A DNA stretch of 64,000 bases from an uncultured Acetobacteraceae bacterium (GTDB taxonomy: Bacteria > Pseudomonadota > Alphaproteobacteria > Acetobacterales > Acetobacteraceae), in contig CAMKWS010000001.1 of assembly GCA_946476985.1 (NCBI GenBank), forward strand, positions 62,001-126,000. The letters are read 5' to 3'. Shown here one piece after another: positions 16,315 through 26,951 of this stretch. The notes beneath the pieces were generated by a model. It did not search any database. It worked only from the letters and a program-made list of their open reading frames with translations, and had not been told where the DNA came from. Numbering within the stretch: the first letter of the stretch is position 1; every line of letters begins with the position of its first letter. The position numbers were made by a program, and so were the translations under genes.

Positions 16315-17307
16315 ATGAAAGAAATTGTTGCCGTTGATATCGGAGGTACCCACGCTCGGTTTGCAATTGCGTCTATCGAGAATGGGCATGTTGTTGAACT
16401 TGGTGAAGCAACAACCTTAAAATGTGCTGAACATGCATCTCTAGCTCTAGCATGGGAAGCATTTAGCCGGTCATTGGGGCGCCCTGTCCCACGTGAGGCG
16501 GGTATTGCGGTTGCCTGCCCTATCACTGGCGACATTCTCAAAATGACAAATAACCCATGGATCATTCAACCAACTCAGCTTGGTAAGCGCTTGCAACTGG
16601 ATGATTTTGCCCTGGTAAATGACTTCGGTGCGGTAGGGCACGCTGTAGCTCAGGTTGGTCCTGAATATATGCGCCATCTCTGCGGGCCGGATGTCGATCT
16701 GCCTGAAAAAGGTACCATCACTATTTTAGGGCCAGGAACAGGCCTCGGTGTAGCAACATTGCTTCGCGGAGAAGACGGTTATCACGTTATTGAGACGGAA
16801 GGTGGCCATGTTGATTTCTCCCCATTAGATGCTGTTGAAGATCATATCCTTGTTGCATTGCGAGACCGTTTCCGCCGTGTCTCTGTCGAGCGTATCGTCT
16901 CTGGCCCGGGGCTAACCAATCTTTATGAGGTGATTGCTGAGCTTCAAGATCGGCCAATAACCATTAAGGATAATCGTACACTATGGACAACAGCTATGGA
17001 GGGGAGTGATACCCTTGCGGCTGCTGCATTAGAACGTTTCTTCTTAAGCCTTGGGTCTGTCGCTGGTGATCTAGCACTAGCCCATGGTGCTCATGGTGTC
17101 GTTGTAGCTGGCGGTTTAGGCCAACGCTTGGCTGATATTCTACCTCACTCTGGATTTGCTGAACGCTTCCTTGCGAAAGGACGTTTTGAGACAATGATGA
17201 GTGAAATGCCGGTAAAAATTATTACACATCCGCAGCCCGGGCTTTATGGAGCTGCTGCTGCCTATGCCAGTAAAGACGCTCGCAAAGGCGCTACACAGCC
17301 TTCATAA
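16315..17307 (+). CDS. glk: Glucokinase
   Basis: VDIGGTHARFAIA, NDFGAVGHAV, LGPGTGLGVA, ETEGGHVDFSP. Confidence 0.95.
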   Translation: MKEIVAVDIGGTHARFAIASIENGHVVELGEATTLKCAEHASLALAWEAFSRSLGRPVPREAGIAVACPITGDILKMTNNPWIIQPTQLGKRLQLDDFALVNDFGAVGHAVAQVGPEYMRHLCGPDVDLPEKGTITILGPGTGLGVATLLRGEDGYHVIETEGGHVDFSPLDAVEDHILVALRDRFRRVSVERIVSGPGLTNLYEVIAELQDRPITIKDNRTLWTTAMEGSDTLAAAALERFFLSLGSVAGDLALAHGAHGVVVAGGLGQRLADILPHSGFAERFLAKGRFETMMSEMPVKIITHPQPGLYGAAAAYASKDARKGATQPS

Positions 17308-17344
17308 AAAAAAGCATTTGCACTTATTAAAAAAAATAAGTGAT

Positions 17345-17380
17345 AATCCCAAGGAGTTTACAAAGCTCCTTGGGATTTTA
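17345..17380 (+). terminator. Rho-independent terminator of glk
   Basis: AATCCCAAGGAG-TTTACAAAG-CTCCTTGGGATTTT, 12-bp perfect stem. Confidence 0.8.
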
Positions 17381-17435
17381 AAGATTACCTTCATAATTTT
17401 GGGGAGAGCAGGCAAAGGCAATTCGCCGCTATGGG

Positions 17436-18122
17436 GTGATTGGAATGATACGTTTTTCTCATTTAATCATGGCTGCCTGTATTACTCTCTCAGGATATTG
17501 TGGTGTTCAATCAGGAGAGACGACCTTTCATAAATTACACTCATTGCTACCTCCACCGCCGGTTATGACTTCAGAGCTCGGCAAGAGGGATGTGTTCATT
17601 TATCAAAATACAAGACATCTCATCGGAACAGCTCGGTGGAAGCAAGCTATCCATGATGCTCGGGTTGGCTATGATGGTACGATTGAAGACTTCTTGCAGG
17701 CGGGCCATATCTCACTGACACCTGTCGACCATATAAAACTCATACATCGTCTAAAAATTGTGCAGCAAATGGCACGCCACCATATGACTGTTGAAAAAAA
17801 TATTTGGAAACGCCGACGTCCTTTTGTGGATTACGGTGGAAGAAGTTGTGTTGTTGGTCGTCGGCGTTTTTTTCCAAGTTGGTCATATCCATCTGGGCAT
17901 ACCGTCCGCGCTTATAGTATTGCACTCACTCTTAGTGATATGTTCCCAGCGCATAGAACCGAACTCCTTCAAAAAGCTCATGATTTTTCTGAAAGTCGCA
18001 TCATATGCGGAATGCATTGGCAATCTGACGTTGAAGCAGGAACACAGCTCGCATATCTAATATTTGAAGCTCAAGAAGAAATGAAAAGAGAATTTTTACG
18101 ATCAAATAAATATATTCAATAA
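17436..18122 (+). CDS. PAP2 family phosphatase (class A acid phosphatase-like)
   Basis: K(x)6RP (KNIWKRRRP), PSGHT, SR(x)5H(x)3D (SRIICGMHWQSD). Confidence 0.85.
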   Translation: MIGMIRFSHLIMAACITLSGYCGVQSGETTFHKLHSLLPPPPVMTSELGKRDVFIYQNTRHLIGTARWKQAIHDARVGYDGTIEDFLQAGHISLTPVDHIKLIHRLKIVQQMARHHMTVEKNIWKRRRPFVDYGGRSCVVGRRRFFPSWSYPSGHTVRAYSIALTLSDMFPAHRTELLQKAHDFSESRIICGMHWQSDVEAGTQLAYLIFEAQEEMKREFLRSNKYIQ

Positions 18123-18133
18123 GTTAATGTTCT

Positions 18134-18502
18134 TTAGAACAAGACTTTGAATCTATTAACTATATCAAAAAATATGTGGGGAGGTAGTGTTTCAATAAAT
18201 TTTGTTTGTCTTGCTCTAAAATCTAAAGAACGTGGATAACAGATAATCACGATACCTGTTGTTTTGAGAGGTTTCTCTAAAGGGACGCCTAATTTACTTC
18301 GACGTATAAAATTCCCATGATTTGTGATGGGTAGTACGGTTACTACACCGTTTAATAGTTGATTAAGTCCTGTTTGGGAAATCACCAGAACCGGGCGATA
18401 CCCTTTTTGCTCGTGTCCTGCCGTAGGGTTAAGATTAACCCAATAAAGATCTCCCTGCTTAATTACAGAGTCTCTCGGCCTTCCGATTGGCTGTTTAACC
18501 AT
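18134..18502 (-). CDS. Type II toxin-antitoxin toxin, MazF/PemK family
   Basis: IKQGDLYWVNLNPTAGHEQKGYRPVLVISQ, VVTVLPITN; overlaps an AbrB/MazE-like gene. Confidence 0.85.
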   Translation of the reverse strand: MVKQPIGRPRDSVIKQGDLYWVNLNPTAGHEQKGYRPVLVISQTGLNQLLNGVVTVLPITNHGNFIRRSKLGVPLEKPLKTTGIVIICYPRSLDFRARQTKFIETLPPHIFFDIVNRFKVLF

Positions 18503-18717
18503 GTCGCATCTTTCATTTTATCTGAAATGTCAGAGGGAGTGCCTTCTAGGAGTTCATCAAGCGTATAATCTGGAGCTGGTTTAGTGATGCTTAATCGATC
18601 ACCATCCACATGTACTCCGACTTGAGAACCAGCTTTAAGGCTTAGTTCTTTGAGATATTCTGCGGGAACTTCCATAACTACCGAAGAACCCATTTTCTTT
18701 AACTTGGCGATTTTCAT
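18463..18717 (-). CDS. Type II toxin-antitoxin antitoxin, AbrB/MazE family
   Basis: KLKKMGSSVVMEVPAEYLKELSLKAGSQVGVHVDGDRLSI swapped-hairpin domain; start at internal MKIAKLKK. Confidence 0.85.
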   Translation of the reverse strand: MKIAKLKKMGSSVVMEVPAEYLKELSLKAGSQVGVHVDGDRLSITKPAPDYTLDELLEGTPSDISDKMKDATWLNSQSEGRETL

Positions 18718-18788
18718 AGCATTCTCCAAAGTTCAAGAGGCTACATTTAGGGAGGATTATCTATCCTCACCATATTACCATAATCCTC

Positions 18789-19061
18789 CTATTGCGCGGG
18801 GGGATGTTTTGTATCCTGCAAGGCTCTACACTCTGCGCGCTCATTCCCGTAATCTGTCAAAAACACAGGCACCATTTTTAAATGAGGATGAGTTACCAGC
18901 TCCTCAGATAAAGCATGAAGTTCCATAGGGTGATAATTCACCAAAGGAGGACAGATAAAACGCTCAGTTCTAGAAGCACAGCTCGTGAACGAAAGAAATA
19001 ACAGAACCAAGGCATAGTTTAAGCCGAAACAAGACAGGTATTTTTTAAAATATTCCCTCAT
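18789..19061 (-). CDS. Rz1-like outer-membrane spanin lipoprotein
   Basis: Signal with lipobox-like LSFTSC, then CPPLVNYHPMELHALSEELVTHP...LTDYGNERAECRAL typical of Rz1-like proteins; start overlaps the upstream gene by 17 nt. Confidence 0.6.
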   Translation of the reverse strand: MREYFKKYLSCFGLNYALVLLFLSFTSCASRTERFICPPLVNYHPMELHALSEELVTHPHLKMVPVFLTDYGNERAECRALQDTKHPPAQ

Positions 19062-19278
19062 CAAGATACCTGATAAGTTGTTCGATATTACGAATACCGT
19101 TTGTACGAGCCTCCAAAGCACGCTGAAGGGCCCGAGATTTTGCTACGGCACCATCATTTCTGAATTTTTGTGTTTGGATATTGGCCGAATTACGTCCTGC
19201 ACGATGACTAAACCATGCCAAGAGACAAATAATCCCAAGAATTATAAGTATAATGCTTCCTAGAAAATATATCTTCAT
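19045..19278 (-). CDS. Rz-like inner-membrane spanin candidate
   Basis: 77 aa, N-terminal TM helix followed by charged helical periplasmic tail; overlaps the Rz1-like ORF. Confidence 0.5.
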   Translation of the reverse strand: MKIYFLGSIILIILGIICLLAWFSHRAGRNSANIQTQKFRNDGAVAKSRALQRALEARTNGIRNIEQLIRYLDEGIF

Positions 19279-19440
19279 GATTAATTCACATATAAAAATA
19301 AAGAAAGATCATAAATTATAATTATTTATCACATTCATTTATAAATAAAATATTTCCTATTTTATAATATAGTTCATACTTATTAACTTTTGTTTAGTAT
19401 TAAAATATTATCCTTCCTTATGGGTCTTAAGGAGGGTGTC

Positions 19441-19653
19441 ATGAGAAAACTTTCATTTACAGAAATAGAATGTGTCGCTGGTAGAGGAAGTGGCATTTGG
19501 GACCAAATGTCCGATGCGATGGCGGCTGTTTCAGCCGCATCAGCGGCATTAGCTTTAGTGCCATCACCGGCATCTTTACCGTTAGGTGTGTTCTCTGGGG
19601 TAACAGGACTTATGTCTGCTGGAGCGAGCTATATGGGGCACGTTGCACAATAG
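19441..19653 (+). CDS. Bacteriocin/microcin-like precursor peptide (70 aa)
   Basis: RBS AAGGAGG, leader MRKLSFTEIECVAGRG resembling double-glycine-type leaders, small hydrophobic Ala/Gly/Ser-rich core with GxxxG-like spacing; start re-called inside the 19390 ORF. Confidence 0.55.
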   Translation: MRKLSFTEIECVAGRGSGIWDQMSDAMAAVSAASAALALVPSPASLPLGVFSGVTGLMSAGASYMGHVAQ

Positions 19654-19674
19654 AATCCTTTATAAGAGGTTATA

Positions 19675-19854
19675 ATGAAGGTCTTTTCTTTTATCTTCAT
19701 AATTTTCCTCGCTCTTGTATGTGCCTATTTATTCACGAATGTTTTCATCGTTCTACTGCTGCGGGTGCAGGATGTTTTCAGAGAAACTTCATTTCTGTGG
19801 TTCTTACCGTTTCTTATTGTCGCATCTGTAGTTATTTCTTTTCGGCTGAAATAA
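19675..19854 (+). CDS. Small hydrophobic membrane protein (59 aa), candidate bacteriocin immunity protein
   Basis: Manual translation: MKVFSFIFIIFLALVCAYLFTNVFIVLLLRVQDVFRETSFLWFLPFLIVASVVISFRLK*; RBS-like AAGAGG upstream, 21 nt after the bacteriocin-like stop; not in the ORF track (<60 aa). Confidence 0.5.
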   Translation: MKVFSFIFIIFLALVCAYLFTNVFIVLLLRVQDVFRETSFLWFLPFLIVASVVISFRLK

Positions 19855-19872
19855 GTAAGGATTTAGCATGAC

Positions 19873-19907
19873 CGCAGGGGGCAGGTTTATTGCACCCCTG
19901 CGTTTTT
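19873..19907 (+). terminator. Rho-independent terminator of the bacteriocin-like unit
   Basis: CGCAGGGG...CCCCTGCG stem followed by TTTTT. Confidence 0.8.
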
Positions 19908-19927
19908 ATTAAATGACTTCAACGTAT

Positions 19928-20587
19928 TTAATTCTTTTTGAATAAGCCTTTAAGCACAAGAGCAATCCCCCCCAAAATTCCAGCCGCTCCTGTTACAATT
20001 TTTGTAAGATCAAAAGATACTCTCTTTTGAATAAATGGCAGTGCACCACTGGCGATCTCAGAAATGCAATGCATAATCTTATCAAACTTTGATGCCGACT
20101 TTCCCGTAACGGCTGTGTAGATATCTTCTCCCGACTTAATAAGATCTGTTAATCCTGTATGGTTTGAAGGAGGAGAGGGAGCATTAGGGTCATCATAAGC
20201 TACCTCTCTTACAAGATCTCCATAGGGATCTTGTCCATTTTCAAAATAAATAATCGCTCTCATCAATTTTAAAAGCAATTCTGGCGTGGGAGGCCCCAAT
20301 TGTTCTTTCGCCTGAACTCCAACAGATTTAGCAACATAGTTAATGTATGAGTTGGTATCATTCTCAATCGGTGGCGCCCATTTTGAAATAATGCCATGCA
20401 CCGTATCAATCTTGTCACGCTTCATATAAAGGACTAGTTGCCGACGAAGAGCGGCCAAGCCTTCTCGGGGAGTTTTAAACACTGCAAAGCGCCCATTAGG
20501 ACCAGGTTCTTTTGTTGCCCCGGCTTGGCCTACAAAATTGAGATTTCCGGGGTTATTATTACGAATTCCACGAGGTACTGTCGTCAT
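19928..20587 (-). CDS. Phage lysis/structural lysozyme-like protein (RNNNPGN family) with C-terminal hydrophobic segment
   Basis: PRGIRNNNPGNLNFVGQAGA...RFAVFKTPREGLAALRRQL; C-term GAAGILGGIALVLKGLFKKN. Confidence 0.7.
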   Translation of the reverse strand: MTTVPRGIRNNNPGNLNFVGQAGATKEPGPNGRFAVFKTPREGLAALRRQLVLYMKRDKIDTVHGIISKWAPPIENDTNSYINYVAKSVGVQAKEQLGPPTPELLLKLMRAIIYFENGQDPYGDLVREVAYDDPNAPSPPSNHTGLTDLIKSGEDIYTAVTGKSASKFDKIMHCISEIASGALPFIQKRVSFDLTKIVTGAAGILGGIALVLKGLFKKN

Positions 20588-20589
20588 GA

Positions 20590-20907
20590 TTATCCTCCAA
20601 AGAGATGGGGATAGATGGCGTGGATGAGCTGATATAATCCAACAGCTATGCCACCACCAATCGTACCACCTGCGCTGATAGCGCCATATAAAATTTTAGC
20701 TTTGCCTGTATTAGCCTCAATAATTTGACCTTTAATGTCTGCAATGCCTCGACGTGTTTCTTCAGATAGTTCCGCAATTTGCTGAGAAAGAATTTGAATT
20801 GCATCGTCATGACGGCTCTGTATTGCTTCCCCAGCAGCCATACGTTCACGTGTTTGTATGAGCGTTTCTCGAACTTGTTCAAATTCCTCTCGGGAAATAT
20901 CTTTCAT
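20590..20907 (-). CDS. Holin-like/coiled-coil protein with C-terminal TM
   Basis: Coiled coil then ILYGAISAGGTIGGGIAVGLYQLIHAIYPHLFGG; directly upstream of the endolysin-like gene; start at MKDISREEFEQ. Confidence 0.5.
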   Translation of the reverse strand: MKDISREEFEQVRETLIQTRERMAAGEAIQSRHDDAIQILSQQIAELSEETRRGIADIKGQIIEANTGKAKILYGAISAGGTIGGGIAVGLYQLIHAIYPHLFGG

Positions 20908-21169
20908 AGATCCTCTAGCCATATATATGTGCCGTGCGGATGCAGCTGAGGCTTTGTTCTGACACACGGCTCTATAGCTAGCCCTAGAGCCGGTAAAATT
21001 ATTTATCGGGTCTGCTCGGGGAAGAGGTTCTTCTTCCTTCATTATAATAACTCCATTGTTTCATAGGTTTTTAATTAAATATAATTAGCGTATTAATAGA
21101 ATATATATTTAGATAAAGATGATTTATTTAAATTTTAATTTGGAAGGGGATTATTCCCACCATATTTCA

Positions 21170-21367
21170 TTATGTTATATTTTCTAAATCTTTGCACAAT
21201 GTGGCCATTTCCGAATAAATGGTGAAAAGGTGGTCACAAACAACACCATTAAAAACTTCATAATTTGTTTCACGATCACCAGCACCAATAGCGGTCACAC
21301 ATGCCATATCGCTGACTTTCCGCATAATCTCCCAAAGGCGCTCATGGTAGGGGAGAGTATTATTCAT
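21170..21367 (-). CDS. Hypothetical small protein (phage-associated)
   Basis: 65-aa ORF with an AGGAGG upstream of the start; no recognised motif. Confidence 0.4.
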   Translation of the reverse strand: MNNTLPYHERLWEIMRKVSDMACVTAIGAGDRETNYEVFNGVVCDHLFTIYSEMATLCKDLENIT

Positions 21368-21456
21368 ACATTCCTCCTTTTAATTCTTTGCGCTCTTTTA
21401 GTAGAAGATATAACAAGGTCTATGATACAGGCGCCCATAGGGAGTCCTCTCAAGCG

Positions 21457-21636
21457 TTAGAGGCATCGTTGTAATCTGGGCGGTATGTCGATGCCTTTTC
21501 GTGTAGCATTTATTTCTTGTGCAAGAAGGCTACACCATTCTTGATTAGTGCTACAGTCGTTAACTGCCGATAGCACCCCAAAAGAGCGAAGTAATTCTTC
21601 ATTCAGGATGAGGTGAATACTTTTGAACACTCTCAT
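21457..21636 (-). CDS. Hypothetical small protein
   Basis: Internal start MRVFKSIHLILNEELLRSFG...; divergent from RHH gene. Confidence 0.3.
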   Translation of the reverse strand: MRVFKSIHLILNEELLRSFGVLSAVNDCSTNQEWCSLLAQEINATRKGIDIPPRLQRCL

Positions 21637-21680
21637 ATATACCTCACAAGAAACTCTTGGGAGCAGTTTCAGGATAACAT

Positions 21681-21699
21681 TTGCACTCTTTGAGTGCAA
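21681..21699. promoter_or_regulatory. Palindromic operator-like site
   Basis: TTGCACTC-TTT-GAGTGCAA perfect 8-bp inverted repeat between divergent ORFs, upstream of the RHH gene. Confidence 0.45.
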
Positions 21700-21744
21700 T
21701 ATCTTTTTATAGTTTCCTAAATATAGCGTAGGTAAAGAATCATC

Positions 21745-21996
21745 ATGAATAAGAAACCAACATCTATTACAGTTCGCTTGGGTGAAGATTTATTACACCA
21801 AGTTCGCCTTTCAGCTGCTCATAATGCACATTCAATGAATGCAGAAATAACACGGCTTTTGCGCTTGGCGCTTCGTGACAACCCTCCTGGGAGCGTACAT
21901 ATTTCTTCAAAAACACCAAAATTAAGCAAGGAAGATATTGCAGAATTGGTTCGATTATTTGAAGAAGCTGTGATCCGTATAGGGCTTAGAGAATGA
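21745..21996 (+). CDS. Arc-like ribbon-helix-helix DNA-binding protein
   Basis: SITVRLGEDLLHQVRLSAAHNAHSMNAEITRLLRLALRD. Confidence 0.75.
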   Translation: MNKKPTSITVRLGEDLLHQVRLSAAHNAHSMNAEITRLLRLALRDNPPGSVHISSKTPKLSKEDIAELVRLFEEAVIRIGLRE

Positions 21997-22046
21997 GAAA
22001 GTATTTTAAATAACATGTCACAAATGTACATATGATACACTCTTAT

Positions 22047-22442
22047 TTAGCGGCTATATATTCTATTACACGGTATATTAGGGCCTCCTGATATTTGATG
22101 ACATCTCTCTTCATCATTACGAAGTAAAATTTCCTTATGAACTTCTACTTCAATGCGCCTTAATACGGAGAAGGGAACATTTACATTCAAAAAATGTAGA
22201 TGTTTCACATGCATTTTAAACGGAACACACCGAACAACATCGCCATATTGCAGATTCAGGTGAGGCGCCCCATACCATGTCAGATAAAGATCTGCTCTAT
22301 GCCTAGGGCTCGGTCCTTTATTGATCCATACGATGATAGCAATCTCGCCGTGTACTCTGATCACAACTCCCATGCCGGGACGAGCAGATATGATTGCTCC
22401 CCTCTTGATCCAATCTTTGGAAAGCAAGGAAAGGGAGAACAT
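22047..22442 (-). CDS. Hypothetical protein, possibly divergent PemK/MazF-like fold
   Basis: IKRGAIISARPGMGVVIRVHGEIAIIVW...GDVVRCVPFKMHVKHLHFLNVNVPFSVLRRIEVEVHKEI; pattern only. Confidence 0.35.
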   Translation of the reverse strand: MFSLSLLSKDWIKRGAIISARPGMGVVIRVHGEIAIIVWINKGPSPRHRADLYLTWYGAPHLNLQYGDVVRCVPFKMHVKHLHFLNVNVPFSVLRRIEVEVHKEILLRNDEERCHQISGGPNIPCNRIYSR

Positions 22443-22542
22443 TGGATATCCGCTGCATTACAGCCAACAAAAAAGCCGTGCACCCTAACGGCTACACGGC
22501 TAACGACTATACTCTTCTGATACGATTATCGTGCTACGGTCG

Positions 22543-23154
22543 TCAAGCGATACGTGGACTGCTCAAGATTTTTTGTCCACGAACAATCAAACGTCTCATT
22601 CCTTCTTCTGCCAAATCATATTCACGACACAGCACAGCAAGGGATGGATAGGCTTTATAAGCCTGAGCCGCAGCAATAGCTCGCTCCATATCCCTGCGGC
22701 GCTTATCTTGTGCGTAATCATGCAAGAGCGTAAGAGTTTTAACTACTTGCTCTACAGCTTTGTGTTTCTGGCGACTTTTGCTCAATGCGGGCCAATTATA
22801 TTGACCAATAGCTGAAAAGGACCACCCTAAAACCAAGAGCTGAACAAGTATTATATGGTGTTGTAAACCCGCATAATTCCAAAACTCTTTAATAGGGAGC
22901 CATGCTTTCCCGCGGAGTAGGGTAAAAGTAAATAGATTACCCGGAACAGTTGGCCCTCCTTTATTTTTCATCTCATCACAATAACCATTTATAGCCAACT
23001 CCCAATTAGCAAGCCATTTATGTGCTTCCATAAGGATGTTATCGTTTAATTTTTTTTGTAACACCTTCAGTGTATTAGATCTGCGCATCCGATGGGATGA
23101 ACCTTGTCTAGGAATTTGTTTCATACGTTCTTGAGATAATGTCTTCATATCCAC
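22543..23154 (-). CDS. Hypothetical phage-type protein with C-terminal helical/HTH-like region
   Basis: 203-aa ORF; MERAIAAAQAYKAYPSLAVLCREYDLAEEGMRRLIVRGQ; divergent to repressor. Confidence 0.5.
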   Translation of the reverse strand: MDMKTLSQERMKQIPRQGSSHRMRRSNTLKVLQKKLNDNILMEAHKWLANWELAINGYCDEMKNKGGPTVPGNLFTFTLLRGKAWLPIKEFWNYAGLQHHIILVQLLVLGWSFSAIGQYNWPALSKSRQKHKAVEQVVKTLTLLHDYAQDKRRRDMERAIAAAQAYKAYPSLAVLCREYDLAEEGMRRLIVRGQKILSSPRIA

Positions 23155-23314
23155 ATTCCTCTAACGCCATAAAATACGTGAAATATCTGCTTAGGATGCC
23201 TCTTTCTTCATCGCAGGTTGAGAGATGTAGAGGGTATCTGATCATTCTCCCTAGAAAGGGAATTAGTTACCTCAGATATTTCGAGGCAAAGAGCAGACCA
23301 ACAACCTGCCTTTG

Positions 23315-23328
23315 TAGGATTTATCCTG
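23315..23328. promoter_or_regulatory. Operator-like palindrome 1
   Basis: TAGGA-TTTA-TCCTG upstream of the S24 repressor. Confidence 0.5.
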
Positions 23329-23353
23329 TGATATAGCTTAAAGTCAATTAATA

Positions 23354-23367
23354 TAGGAAAAATCCTA
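23354..23367. promoter_or_regulatory. Operator-like palindrome 2
   Basis: TAGGA-AAAA-TCCTA (perfect), upstream of the S24 repressor. Confidence 0.55.
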
Positions 23368-23372
23368 CTTTA

Positions 23373-24101
23373 TTGTCGTATGCTATCCGTTTTATGGTGT
23401 CACTCATTATGACAGTCTCTTCCGTAGCGTTACGCTTAGAAAAGAAACGTCTTGAAAAAGGCATTAGCCACAGAGCGTTAGGCCTAAAGTCTGGCGTTAA
23501 TCATGCATATTTAAAAAATTTACTTGAGGGAAAATCCCAAGAGCCACGGCGCAGTAAAGTAGAAGCCCTAGCTAAGGCTCTAGAATGTCCGGTCGAATAT
23601 TTCTATGAAAATGATGTATCCGAGCATGAATCCACCCCTCATCAGATTCAGCCGCCCATTTTACAAAAGTCTAAGGCTTGCGCACCAACTGTTGCGATCC
23701 CTATGTACACCATTGCCGCAACACCCCAGGGAACCACTGCCCTAAAGGCAGAAAACGGGACAGCGTGGCATATTCCAATACAGGACCTTGCCCCATTTAT
23801 TTCTGATACTAAAGAAATTGCAGGCGTTATATTATACGGAGATTCGATGGAGCCAGTATTTCGTTCTGGTGAACGTATTTTATTCGACTTCTCTCTAAAT
23901 AAAATAACAACAGATGGCGTTTATCTTATAACTACTCCAACTGGGGTAGCGATTAAACAATTACAAATCATTCCTGATGAGGCTCATAATACCACTATTA
24001 TTCGTGTCTCAAATAAAAATCCTGGATATGCCTCTTACGACCTATCTATCAATCAAATTACAGTGCATGGACGCGCCATTGCCAAATGGATGTGGCTATA
24101 A
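23373..24101 (+). CDS. S24 family (CI/LexA-like) phage repressor
   Basis: N-terminal HTH (ISHRALGLKSGVNHAYLKNLLEG), C-terminal GDSMEP serine and VAIKQL lysine motifs; true start may be 23394 or 23409. Confidence 0.88.
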   Translation: MSYAIRFMVSLIMTVSSVALRLEKKRLEKGISHRALGLKSGVNHAYLKNLLEGKSQEPRRSKVEALAKALECPVEYFYENDVSEHESTPHQIQPPILQKSKACAPTVAIPMYTIAATPQGTTALKAENGTAWHIPIQDLAPFISDTKEIAGVILYGDSMEPVFRSGERILFDFSLNKITTDGVYLITTPTGVAIKQLQIIPDEAHNTTIIRVSNKNPGYASYDLSINQITVHGRAIAKWMWL

Positions 24102-24159
24102 CCCGCCTCTTCCCAGGCGATGATCTATTCAAAACACAACTTTATGAAAATCTTAAATA

Positions 24160-24173
24160 ATGGAACAATCCTA
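24160..24173. promoter_or_regulatory. Operator-like palindrome 3 (one half-site mismatch)
   Basis: ATGGA-ACAA-TCCTA downstream of the repressor, upstream of the 24241 ORF. Confidence 0.35.
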
Positions 24174-24189
24174 CAATTGCGCTTGAATT

Positions 24190-24203
24190 TAGGATATATC
24201 ATC
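24190..24203. promoter_or_regulatory. Operator-like palindrome 4 (imperfect)
   Basis: TAGGA-TATA-TCATC upstream of the 24241 ORF. Confidence 0.3.
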
Positions 24204-24240
24204 CAGTATGTTTGGGGCATATCCTTTGTGAGGTGATATT

Positions 24241-24531
24241 ATGAATCATCTTAATGAAACGCCCTTCTTTAATGCTCTCAAAAATAGGGCTTCCCTTTTC
24301 AATACTGAGGCCTACAGCCCGCAAGAAGATGTGGCACTTCTACAAGCCATTTCCCTTGCTATTGGCATTATCGGGGTCTCTGGGGTGAGTGAAGGCAACA
24401 GAGCGAGGTTGGAACTTGCTCAGATGGCACTCTCTGCCGTCCGCCGCAATATGGAAACCAAAGGCACAGCAACACAAAACCGTAGGGAGGTGTATGGAAA
24501 TGCTAATCTTCCTCCCATCCAGCGCTCCTAA
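24241..24531 (+). CDS. Hypothetical phage early protein
   Basis: 96-aa ORF preceded by AGGTGATATT; downstream of repressor and operator-like sites. Confidence 0.5.
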   Translation: MNHLNETPFFNALKNRASLFNTEAYSPQEDVALLQAISLAIGIIGVSGVSEGNRARLELAQMALSAVRRNMETKGTATQNRREVYGNANLPPIQRS

Positions 24532-24579
24532 CAAAATAAACTCAAATCCCACTAGCATCAAATGTGGAGCCCCAAATAT

Positions 24580-24819
24580 ATGCCACAGCGCATTCCCCAA
24601 AAAGATATCACAAAATTATGCCCACCAGGCATCCTTGAACGCGCTCAGGCTCTTCATGAAGAGGGCACTTATAGTGCCCAAATAAAAGAGCAAATCTTGG
24701 GGGATTTGGAAGATATAAAACGGTACGAACATTACCGCATGAAAGGCCTTGCCGACTTACACCGTTTGCATGTGATGGATTCTGCAGAAGCTTTGTTAAA
24801 AGCTGGAATACTTAAATAA
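24580..24819 (+). CDS. Hypothetical protein
   Basis: MPQRIPQKDITKLCPPGILERAQALHEEG...; same-strand cluster. Confidence 0.45.
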   Translation: MPQRIPQKDITKLCPPGILERAQALHEEGTYSAQIKEQILGDLEDIKRYEHYRMKGLADLHRLHVMDSAEALLKAGILK

Positions 24820-24842
24820 CAACGAGAAACAGGAACAACGAA

Positions 24843-25025
24843 ATGGCCTCAAACTTCCTTAAACCATGTCCATTTTGCGGGGGAAGAAACCTTCTTTTTG
24901 CCGCAGCCATTACGACAATTTCGTGCGCAGATTGCTGGGCAACAGGCCCACAACACCGTACCAATTTCAAAGTGGCAACTACTCAATGGAACATCAGAGC
25001 AGACGAAGGGCCAATGTGTAAGTAA
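24843..25025 (+). CDS. Lar-like (restriction alleviation) zinc-ribbon protein
   Basis: LKPCPFCGGRNLLF...ISCADCWATGP...TQWNIRA. Confidence 0.65.
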   Translation: MASNFLKPCPFCGGRNLLFAAAITTISCADCWATGPQHRTNFKVATTQWNIRADEGPMCK

Positions 25026-25238
25026 AATTTCCATGCTGAGGCAGTCCGCTTCATCCATCAAATTGCCGCCATTACAAGGCATGCAACACTCAGAGAGGTT
25101 AATGGATATACAATTGAGGCAGACCAAAAACGCCTAGCTCGAAAAAGCATTTCCTAAATAGAAAAGCAAAATATTTAAGGGGAGGGGAGTAAGACAGTAC
25201 AGCAGAAGTGGGGTAAGACTGTCGTTATCAAACATTCC

Positions 25239-25312
25239 TGGAGGTCTGGGCGGGAATCGAACCCACATACGCGGATTTGCAGTCCGATGCATAGCCATTC
25301 TGCCACCAGACC
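25239..25312 (-). tRNA. tRNA-Cys (anticodon GCA)
   Basis: Reverse complement GGTCTGGTGGCAGAATGGCTATGCATCGGACTGCAAATCCGCGTATGTGGGTTCGAATCCCGCCCAGACCTCCA folds as a cloverleaf; acceptor GGTCTGG/CCAGACC, CCA encoded. Confidence 0.95.
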
Positions 25313-25469
25313 TTGGAATGTGTGCCCCTTCATAAAGCTTATCTGTCATGGGTCAATAGGAAAAATTCGATATGGATTTTTTTTTACTTATCATCCCTCA
25401 GAAGCTATCCTACACTCTGCTTTATTAAATTTGTATATTCCAATCTTTCCTAACCCGCAGGCTGGCCAA

Positions 25470-26951
25470 ATGAGCTCACGTTTTTACCGTTCGACATATG
25501 CTAAATGGTCAGTGGAATTGGGGGTCGGAGTATGTTTGGTTGTGCCAACGTCTCCTAGCATTGCGCAAAGCTATACAGGAAGTGGCAGCCCAGAGTTTGT
25601 ACCCCATACGCTAAAAGAGGCTCTCTCTATGGCGTATTTAACAAATCCTCAATTGCGTGAGGCACGTGCACAGTTACGAGCCATAGATGAACAAATGCCA
25701 GCCGCCATGGCAGGGTGGCGCCCGATAATCCAAGGAAATGCAAGCCTTACCTATTATAAGGGTAATAGTAGCTATACACAAACAACTCAGATCCTTGGGC
25801 ATGATGTTAAAATCCCTAACATCCAGCGCTACTCAAGTGGGGGGTATAATGCGGGCGTTAATATTACACAGCCCCTATACCAAGGTGGTAGAACCATCTC
25901 GAATATTCGAATGGCAAAAAACCAAATTTTTGCCCAGCGAGCTCATTTAATTCAAGTTGAGCAACAGGTCCTCTTTAACGCCATGCAGGCTTATGTAGAT
26001 GTCGTGGGAGATGAACAGTTACTGCAAATTAGCATCAATAATGAACGCGTGCTGAGGCAACAATTAGATGCTACTAATCGACGCTTCCATCTAGGAGAAT
26101 TGAGCCGAACAGACGTTGCACAAGCCCAAGGTGCTTTGGCTACGGCCTCAGCTAGCCGTCAGCAAACAGAAGGCTCCCTACAAGCAGCACAAGCAGCTTA
26201 TGTACAGGCTGTTGGTGTTGCCCCTGCACCAGATCTTTTACCCCCTCAGCCGTTAGCTTTGCCTGTCAGCCGAGAAAAGGAGGCTATAGCTGAAGCAGTT
26301 CGCAACAATCCTGCCGTAGTTGCCGCACTCTTTTCTGCAGCGATGCAAAAAGATAATATTTCTGTTCAAATGGCTGCTATTCTTCCCAAAGTCTCTGCCA
26401 GCTTGGGGTATCAACGCACTAAAGACCAAGGAGCGGCTGATTCCCTACAAGATAACAAGTTTGCGGCTCTTACTTTGCAAGTCCCTCTGTATCAAGGGGG
26501 AAGTGAGTATGCAGCTGTTCGCCAAGCAAGACAAACAGCCGTTACAGCACGGCATGAAGTGGATGTGCAGCGCCGACAAGCTTTAAGTGATGCTTCATCT
26601 AGCTGGCAATATTATGTAGCCGCAAAAGAGGCGCTCCGCAGCAATAAAATTGCTGTGACTGCAGATATTGCCGCCTTAGCTGGTGTAGAACGACAAGCCT
26701 TAGTCGGTACAGCGTCTACGTTAGCCGTGCTTCAACAACAACAAACACTTTTGCAAGCACAACAAGCACTTATCCAAAATGTCACATCCTTAGTGACCGC
26801 ATCTTACCAAATTGCCATGAGTATGGGCCGCTTGACGGCTGTTAATTTGAAGCTAGACGTCCCTCTATATGATGAAAAAGCATATTATCGGGCTGTCAAG
26901 AACCGTCTCTGGGGAACCGGGGACTACAGCATTAACCAACCAGGACGATAA
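25470..26951 (+). CDS. tolC: TolC family outer membrane protein
   Basis: LKEALSMAYLTNPQLREARAQLRAIDEQMP..., YNAGVNITQPLYQGGR repeats; start re-called because the 25287 start overlaps tRNA-Cys. Confidence 0.88.
   Translation: MSSRFYRSTYAKWSVELGVGVCLVVPTSPSIAQSYTGSGSPEFVPHTLKEALSMAYLTNPQLREARAQLRAIDEQMPAAMAGWRPIIQGNASLTYYKGNSSYTQTTQILGHDVKIPNIQRYSSGGYNAGVNITQPLYQGGRTISNIRMAKNQIFAQRAHLIQVEQQVLFNAMQAYVDVVGDEQLLQISINNERVLRQQLDATNRRFHLGELSRTDVAQAQGALATASASRQQTEGSLQAAQAAYVQAVGVAPAPDLLPPQPLALPVSREKEAIAEAVRNNPAVVAALFSAAMQKDNISVQMAAILPKVSASLGYQRTKDQGAADSLQDNKFAALTLQVPLYQGGSEYAAVRQARQTAVTARHEVDVQRRQALSDASSSWQYYVAAKEALRSNKIAVTADIAALAGVERQALVGTASTLAVLQQQQTLLQAQQALIQNVTSLVTASYQIAMSMGRLTAVNLKLDVPLYDEKAYYRAVKNRLWGTGDYSINQPGR

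Follow-up and report, generated by a model that had tools for sequence, protein, structure and literature searches.

Does a 70-amino acid open reading frame (ORF) with a small membrane protein encoded just behind it constitute a bacteriocin and its immunity protein, and is the pair self-contained, as the initial annotation of this locus proposed? The locus lies within the 64,000-nucleotide stretch of DNA analyzed here (the window), in a 1.88-Mb genome (G000) of the genus Bombella, of bee-symbiont type. We assign a probability of roughly 60% to a revised answer, namely that the peptide is microcin-like and is exported in trans by the host C39 system, with a 59-amino acid membrane protein providing immunity.

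The precursor, its leader and the adjacent membrane protein

The 70-amino acid ORF (MRKLSFTEIECVAGRGSGIWDQMSDAMAAVSAASAALALVPSPASLPLGVFSGVTGLMSAGASYMGHVAQ; 19441–19653, plus strand) was assigned as a microcin-like precursor from its reading frame, its leader pattern and a leader profile. It is preceded by a strong ribosome-binding site (AAGGAGGG, 19430–19437, plus strand) containing AAGGAGG, and is followed after 21 nt by the 59-amino acid ORF (19675–19854, plus strand), an arrangement that direct reading of the sequence bears out as first described. Residues 1–15 (MRKLSFTEIECVAGR; 19441–19485, plus strand), located before GSGIWDQ, form a C39-type leader, with Leu at position –12, Glu at –8, Ile at –7, Val at –4, Gly at –2, and Arg at –1. 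These positions are as in five other leaders of the same genome and 34 leaders of other Acetobacteraceae, except for –1, at which those leaders carry Gly or Ala. The hydrophobic recognition positions reported for such leaders are –4, –7, and –12 (PMC10885120), which here are Val, Ile, and Leu, and the consensus for ComA is Leu(–12)-X3-Glu(–8)-Leu(–7) (PMC6363468).

The leader had previously been described as double-glycine type, and controls on both pattern and profile uphold this. The leader DNA pattern has one site in the window and none in 100 shuffles. Genome-wide it has exactly six sites, which are the 70-amino acid ORF and five peptides linked to an exporter, and the number stays at six with one mismatch allowed. 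The GG/GA version of the pattern gave 44 matches in 22 of 348 family genomes, as compared to one for a reversed control. A weight matrix built from 34 leaders, all of other genomes, gave the ORF 22.1 bits, against –0.1 bits for the runner-up among 3,959 start codons of the window and a maximum of 10.7 bits in 60 random windows; the training leaders were gathered with a pattern that the ORF also satisfies, and that pattern is derivable from the five exporter-linked peptides without the ORF. Those five score 19.0–31.3 bits, a range that includes the value for the ORF. Chance resemblance to a leader is ruled out by these controls.

Past R15, the core is 55 amino acids in length and 51% Gly, Ala, and Ser, consistent with its earlier description as small, Gly/Ala/Ser-rich, and hydrophobic. 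Its predicted mature mass of 5266 Da (cleavage after residue 15) is within the range of class II microcins (about 5–10 kDa). The C-terminus (SYMGHVAQ) is without the Gly/Ser-rich siderophore-attachment end of class IIb siderophore microcins. A single-sequence AlphaFold model of the peptide has two helices (pLDDT 71) and no match in the PDB, and was given little weight for these reasons. No convincing homologue of the peptide was found in 60 relatives, 85,462 species genomes, IMG/VR, phages, or plasmids, and none of the 59-amino acid protein in 40 relatives, phages, or IMG/VR; with neither protein having a detectable homologue, there is no sign of purifying selection. Neither has an above-threshold match in PHROG, NCBIfam, or Pfam. 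The family search suggested in the initial annotation thus gave no bacteriocin membership for the peptide, the MccV family (PF17508) matching at E 0.028 and 15.4 bits, below the Pfam gathering cut-off of 27.

The 59-amino acid protein has two hydrophobic segments (residues 3–21 and 40–58) and is a putative two-transmembrane immunity protein. In class II microcins, an immunity protein of 51–216 amino acids with transmembrane helices is encoded next to the peptide (PMC10233263), and the size of the ORF falls inside this range. The assignment as an immunity protein is supported by architecture, which is shared with another genome of the family (G293), in which leader-bearing precursors directly precede multi-transmembrane proteins of 70 and 96 amino acids. 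Most Acetobacteraceae leader peptides have no small transmembrane gene beside them. The combination is therefore a minority architecture, and favors a toxin/immunity pair specifically where it is present. The G293 locus (L232 867–7593) is itself an array of leader precursors, several directly before small multi-transmembrane proteins, set between fragments of ABC exporter genes, and resembles the repeated duplication of precursor/immunity units.

Downstream of the pair is a hairpin with a T-run (19865–19912, plus strand; stem at about 19873–19902), identified by folding. The Rho-independent terminator claimed here finds partial support: the hairpin has a folding energy of –21.8 kcal/mol (z = –3.98), equaled by none of 200 shuffles, but it is not listed by a consensus terminator scan.

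The C39 exporter of the host and its linked peptides

The initial annotation noted that no dedicated exporter lies in the window, which is correct; the window does contain a TolC-family gene (25287–26951). It also suggested a search of the rest of the genome for a C39-peptidase ABC exporter, and this search located one, a 706-amino acid C39-ABC protein (L022 8968–11088) that is the single C39 match in the genome (PF03412, E 3e-35). The motifs of the Cys/His/Asp triad are intact (ECGLAC, HFVVL, and NDPARG). An HlyD gene (L022 7622–8971) comes before it and a divergent TolC gene (L022 6054–7484) lies beside the two, all on contig C6. This is the only complete C39-ABC/HlyD/TolC set in the genome and is on a different contig from the 70-amino acid ORF, so that export would need to be in trans. 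The proposal of a bacteriocin unit thus keeps its C39-type leader, microcin-like core, and adjacent two-transmembrane protein, and gains an exporter within the genome, but loses self-containment. Recognition of the precursor's leader by the host C39 exporter is well supported.

Five small ORFs adjoin the exporter and start with MR[KED]L[SN]xxExxxV[AS]GG. No immunity-type gene adjoins them, and their cores are repeat-rich and soluble-looking. These peptides (e.g., with FFPPE repeats) are not toxin-like, which indicates that in this genome a C39 leader alone does not make a bacteriocin. They are encoded at L022 11209–12820 and resemble neither standard bacteriocins nor any family; three have repeated motifs of the [LI]xFPPE type (e.g., KLLFPPEVAKM and RLFFPPEVEAM), and three of the five have a repeat of the GVI[IV]G[NR] type.

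Exporter and leader peptides are associated across the genus. A C39 exporter occurs in 7 of 11 Bombella genomes, and leader peptides occur in six of the seven with the exporter and in none of the four without it (Fisher P 0.015). One genome (G005, L083) has a C39 exporter yet no leader peptide recognizable by the strict pattern, nearby or genome-wide. In B. favorum, B. intestini, B. mellum, B. apis, and B. pluederhausensis (L079–L082, L084), Gly-rich leader peptides of 129–138 amino acids are located near a C39 exporter; four of the species have them as a divergent pair. In a further genome (G244, L116), a leader peptide gene is tandemly duplicated along with a neighboring dehydrogenase-like gene of ~317 amino acids.

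Phage-derived context in Bombella and in a second genus

The gene pair is contained within a genome-specific, phage-derived island of ~7 kb (18134–25238, approximate limits), which went unnoticed in the initial annotation and is bounded on the right by tRNA-Cys (25239–25312). Nine Bombella genomes have orthologous GLK (often with PAP) followed by TolC and ValS, with all island genes absent, and it is this comparison that defines 18.13–25.24 kb as an island. Its GC content is 41%, as compared to 46.6% for the window. Two of the nine genomes have other inserts, of 5–6 kb, in the same GLK/PAP-TolC-ValS interval. The PAP/tRNA-Cys/TolC interval (window 17300–25320; L142 8053–13385) is an insertion hot spot, occupied in another Bombella genome (L142) by a Sel1-like repeat protein and three tandem secreted paralogues of ~350 amino acids.

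The leftmost island genes encode a PemK/MazF toxin and a MazE-like antitoxin (18134–18729, minus strand; PF02452, E 2e-21 for 18134–18502), the latter assigned by position and sequence. Next are an Rz1-like lipoprotein with a Cys-containing signal peptide (18789–19076, minus strand; counterpart L091 6378–6608), which overlaps the end of Rz, and an Rz-like spanin (19045–19278, minus strand; phrog_214, weak, E 0.0045; counterpart L091 6605–6838). On the other side of the pair are a gene for an endolysin-like protein that ends in a hydrophobic domain (19928–20587, minus strand; phrog_873, E 6.9e-45), relatives of which occur in Bombella prophages and viral contigs, and, upstream of it, a holin-like membrane protein of the lysis cassette (20590–21042, minus strand). 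The latter has no convincing family match and was assigned by gene order and resemblance as in L091 5975–6313. A CI-like S24 repressor (23373–24101, plus strand; phrog_4, E 1.1e-27; PF00717) lies further right. The precursor and its partner thus sit between the endolysin and Rz/Rz1 genes, on the opposite strand. Related cassettes in other Bombella prophages, and in one more prophage of the host genome, run in the order Rz, Rz1, membrane gene, endolysin, with no such insert. No integrase or structural gene was recognized in the island and no attachment-site repeats were found, which makes it a remnant or a satellite. The phage collection contained no relative of the island DNA, and no such leader occurs in the 851 kb covered by 80 viral loci whose endolysins are related, which indicates that the arrangement is not general.

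A second case occurs in a genome of another Acetobacteraceae genus (G023), which has its own C39 exporter. Two tandem leader-bearing peptides, of 73 (VSGG) and 75 (VSGR) amino acids, are found there as an identical pair in two copies (L087 4347–4866 and L088 5848–6367), in prophage DNA, with tail genes (Mu Gp48-like, PF10076; fibre-adaptor, PF23148) on one side and a cell-wall hydrolase of the lysis genes (PF07486) on the other. As in the Bombella island, a C39 leader precedes a small-residue-rich core beside lysis genes, and one junction is Gly-Arg. Unlike the Bombella unit, the G023 pair consists of two tandem peptides, with a 139-amino acid membrane protein downstream, and no similarity between their cores and that of the 70-amino acid ORF was noticed. 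Judged from these two sequence contexts, there appear to have been two or more entries of C39-leader peptides into the late regions of Acetobacteraceae phages.

The Gly-Arg junction differs from the GG/GA of class II microcins; junctions described for C39 leaders are GG, GA, or GS (PMC6363468, PMC10885120). Substitution G18A is tolerated and G18P blocks cleavage, Arg not being among the changes tested (PMC5311971). Among ~41 distinct leaders, Arg at –1 occurs only in the 70-amino acid ORF and one G023 peptide (MRELSTEELFFVSGRKNFSW, two copies). No other Gly-Arg leader occurs in 388 family genomes, and both of these are in phage-derived DNA (2 of 3 prophage peptides versus 0 of ~38 others, P 0.004, an association noticed after the fact). 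A candidate third case, in G276, was rejected, its junction being Gly-Ser on inspection.

Competing readings and relation to known systems

The phage context raises the question of whether the pair belongs to the lysis machinery, as a holin and antiholin whose leader resemblance is coincidental. The initial annotation had named a phage holin or structural peptide as the outcome that would speak against a bacteriocin, and the context is indeed phage-derived, with two hydrophobic proteins encoded between endolysin and Rz genes. We consider this very improbable, since the leader match lies far beyond chance and argues against a holin, the pair runs opposite to the lysis cassette and has a terminator-like hairpin to itself, related Bombella cassettes already have a membrane gene of their own, the 80 viral loci contain no such leader, and PHROG matches neither protein. 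Even less probable is that the peptide is a prophage-borne inhibitor or decoy, its leader recognized but its Gly-Arg junction cut slowly or never, blocking the host's peptide export. Such a role would explain intact recognition residues next to an abnormal junction, and the confinement of Gly-Arg leaders to phage-derived DNA; however, that association was seen after the fact among three prophage peptides, one member of the G023 pair has an ordinary GG, and immunity better explains the adjacent transmembrane protein.

The abnormal junction might also reflect decay, the Gly at –1 having been lost (GG to GR) in a deteriorating prophage remnant, with little or no peptide produced, or the peptide left unprocessed. 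The island's want of recognized integrase and structural genes fits this, as does the absence of any homologue by which conservation could be seen. It is nonetheless improbable given intact ORFs, a ribosome-binding site, a strong hairpin, and the independent recurrence of Gly-Arg in an intact ORF in both G023 prophage copies. A C39-exported peptide need not be a toxin, and the ORF could instead encode a secreted signal, or a surface or biofilm peptide, with the 59-amino acid protein in some other role. The five exporter-linked peptides, with no immunity-type neighbors, are in keeping with such a function, and a role in biofilm development is reported for GG-leader small secreted proteins of Synechococcus (PMC4997328). 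The 70-amino acid ORF, unlike those five, has a hydrophobic core with two predicted helices and its own adjacent two-transmembrane gene, making a non-toxin unlikely.

We therefore return to the microcin-like peptide with an immunity protein. The pair would be an accessory unit of moron type carried by a phage, in which a small membrane protein guards against a C39-leader peptide. In the lysogen, the chromosomal C39-ABC/HlyD/TolC exporter would recognize the precursor through its leader, and cleavage past residue 15 would free a hydrophobic, helical, Gly/Ala/Ser-rich peptide of 55 amino acids. The peptide may act on closely related bacteria at their inner membrane. The two-transmembrane protein would provide self-immunity, and a lysogen, or a carrier of the island, would gain the advantage when competing with near kin.

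As judged from sequence, the unit is microcin-like but is not filed as a class II microcin. A GG/GA leader junction and a linked exporter are among the defining features of that class (PMC10233263), and the unit lacks both this junction and a nearby C39-ABC and membrane fusion protein. The class II features present are the C39 recognition residues in the leader, the predicted mass of the mature peptide, and the PCAT, MFP, and TolC in the genome, with triad motifs. Among known systems, it resembles class IIa MccV (CvaC-Cvi with CvaAB-TolC) in its 15-residue leader of the MR-x-L-x-x-x-E-x-x-x-V-x-G type, hydrophobic core of ~5 kDa, adjacent small transmembrane protein, and C39-ABC/HlyD/TolC set in the genome. 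It differs from MccV in its Gly-Arg junction, its exporter on another contig, its location in a chromosomal phage island rather than on a plasmid, and its sub-threshold match to the MccV profile. It shares a C39 leader and a small-residue-rich helical core with class IIb two-peptide bacteriocins (lactobin/cerein type), but is a single peptide in a Gram-negative host and matches no NCBIfam bacteriocin family.

Bacteriocins on phages are already known as such, and phage-borne bacteriocins, in which a bacteriocin-type gene is likewise carried by a temperate phage, are reportedly treated by Dragos et al. 2021. Sublancin is carried by SP-beta and brings its own transporter, whereas here the exporter is that of the host and the gene pair is inside the lysis cassette. 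What would be new is a variant, a microcin-like pair that depends on the host pump, has a Gly-Arg junction, and lies inside a lysis cassette. No literature linking prophage, class II microcin, and leader peptide was found in a narrow text search, which is no proof of novelty.

Bombella has been linked to the protection of bee larvae. In 22 Bombella genomes, no bacteriocins were reported with BAGEL4 (PMC9147383). Bombella is now seen to have C39 exporters and leader-bearing peptides (including in B. apis, B. favorum, B. intestini, B. mellum, and B. pluederhausensis), as well as an orphan precursor in a phage island. Two questions can now be put to the test: can microcin-like weapons that rely on a host pump be spread by phages, and how much variation does a C39 peptidase accept at its cleavage site? 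More speculatively, temperate phages of Acetobacteraceae might carry exporter-less C39-leader peptides in or beside the lysis module and parasitize the host C39 exporter, with Gly-Arg a maintained variation (through slow cleavage, leader retention, or exporter blockade) rather than decay, although we regard this generalization as unlikely. If true, phage-borne weapons of this kind would function nowhere but in hosts already equipped with the pump.
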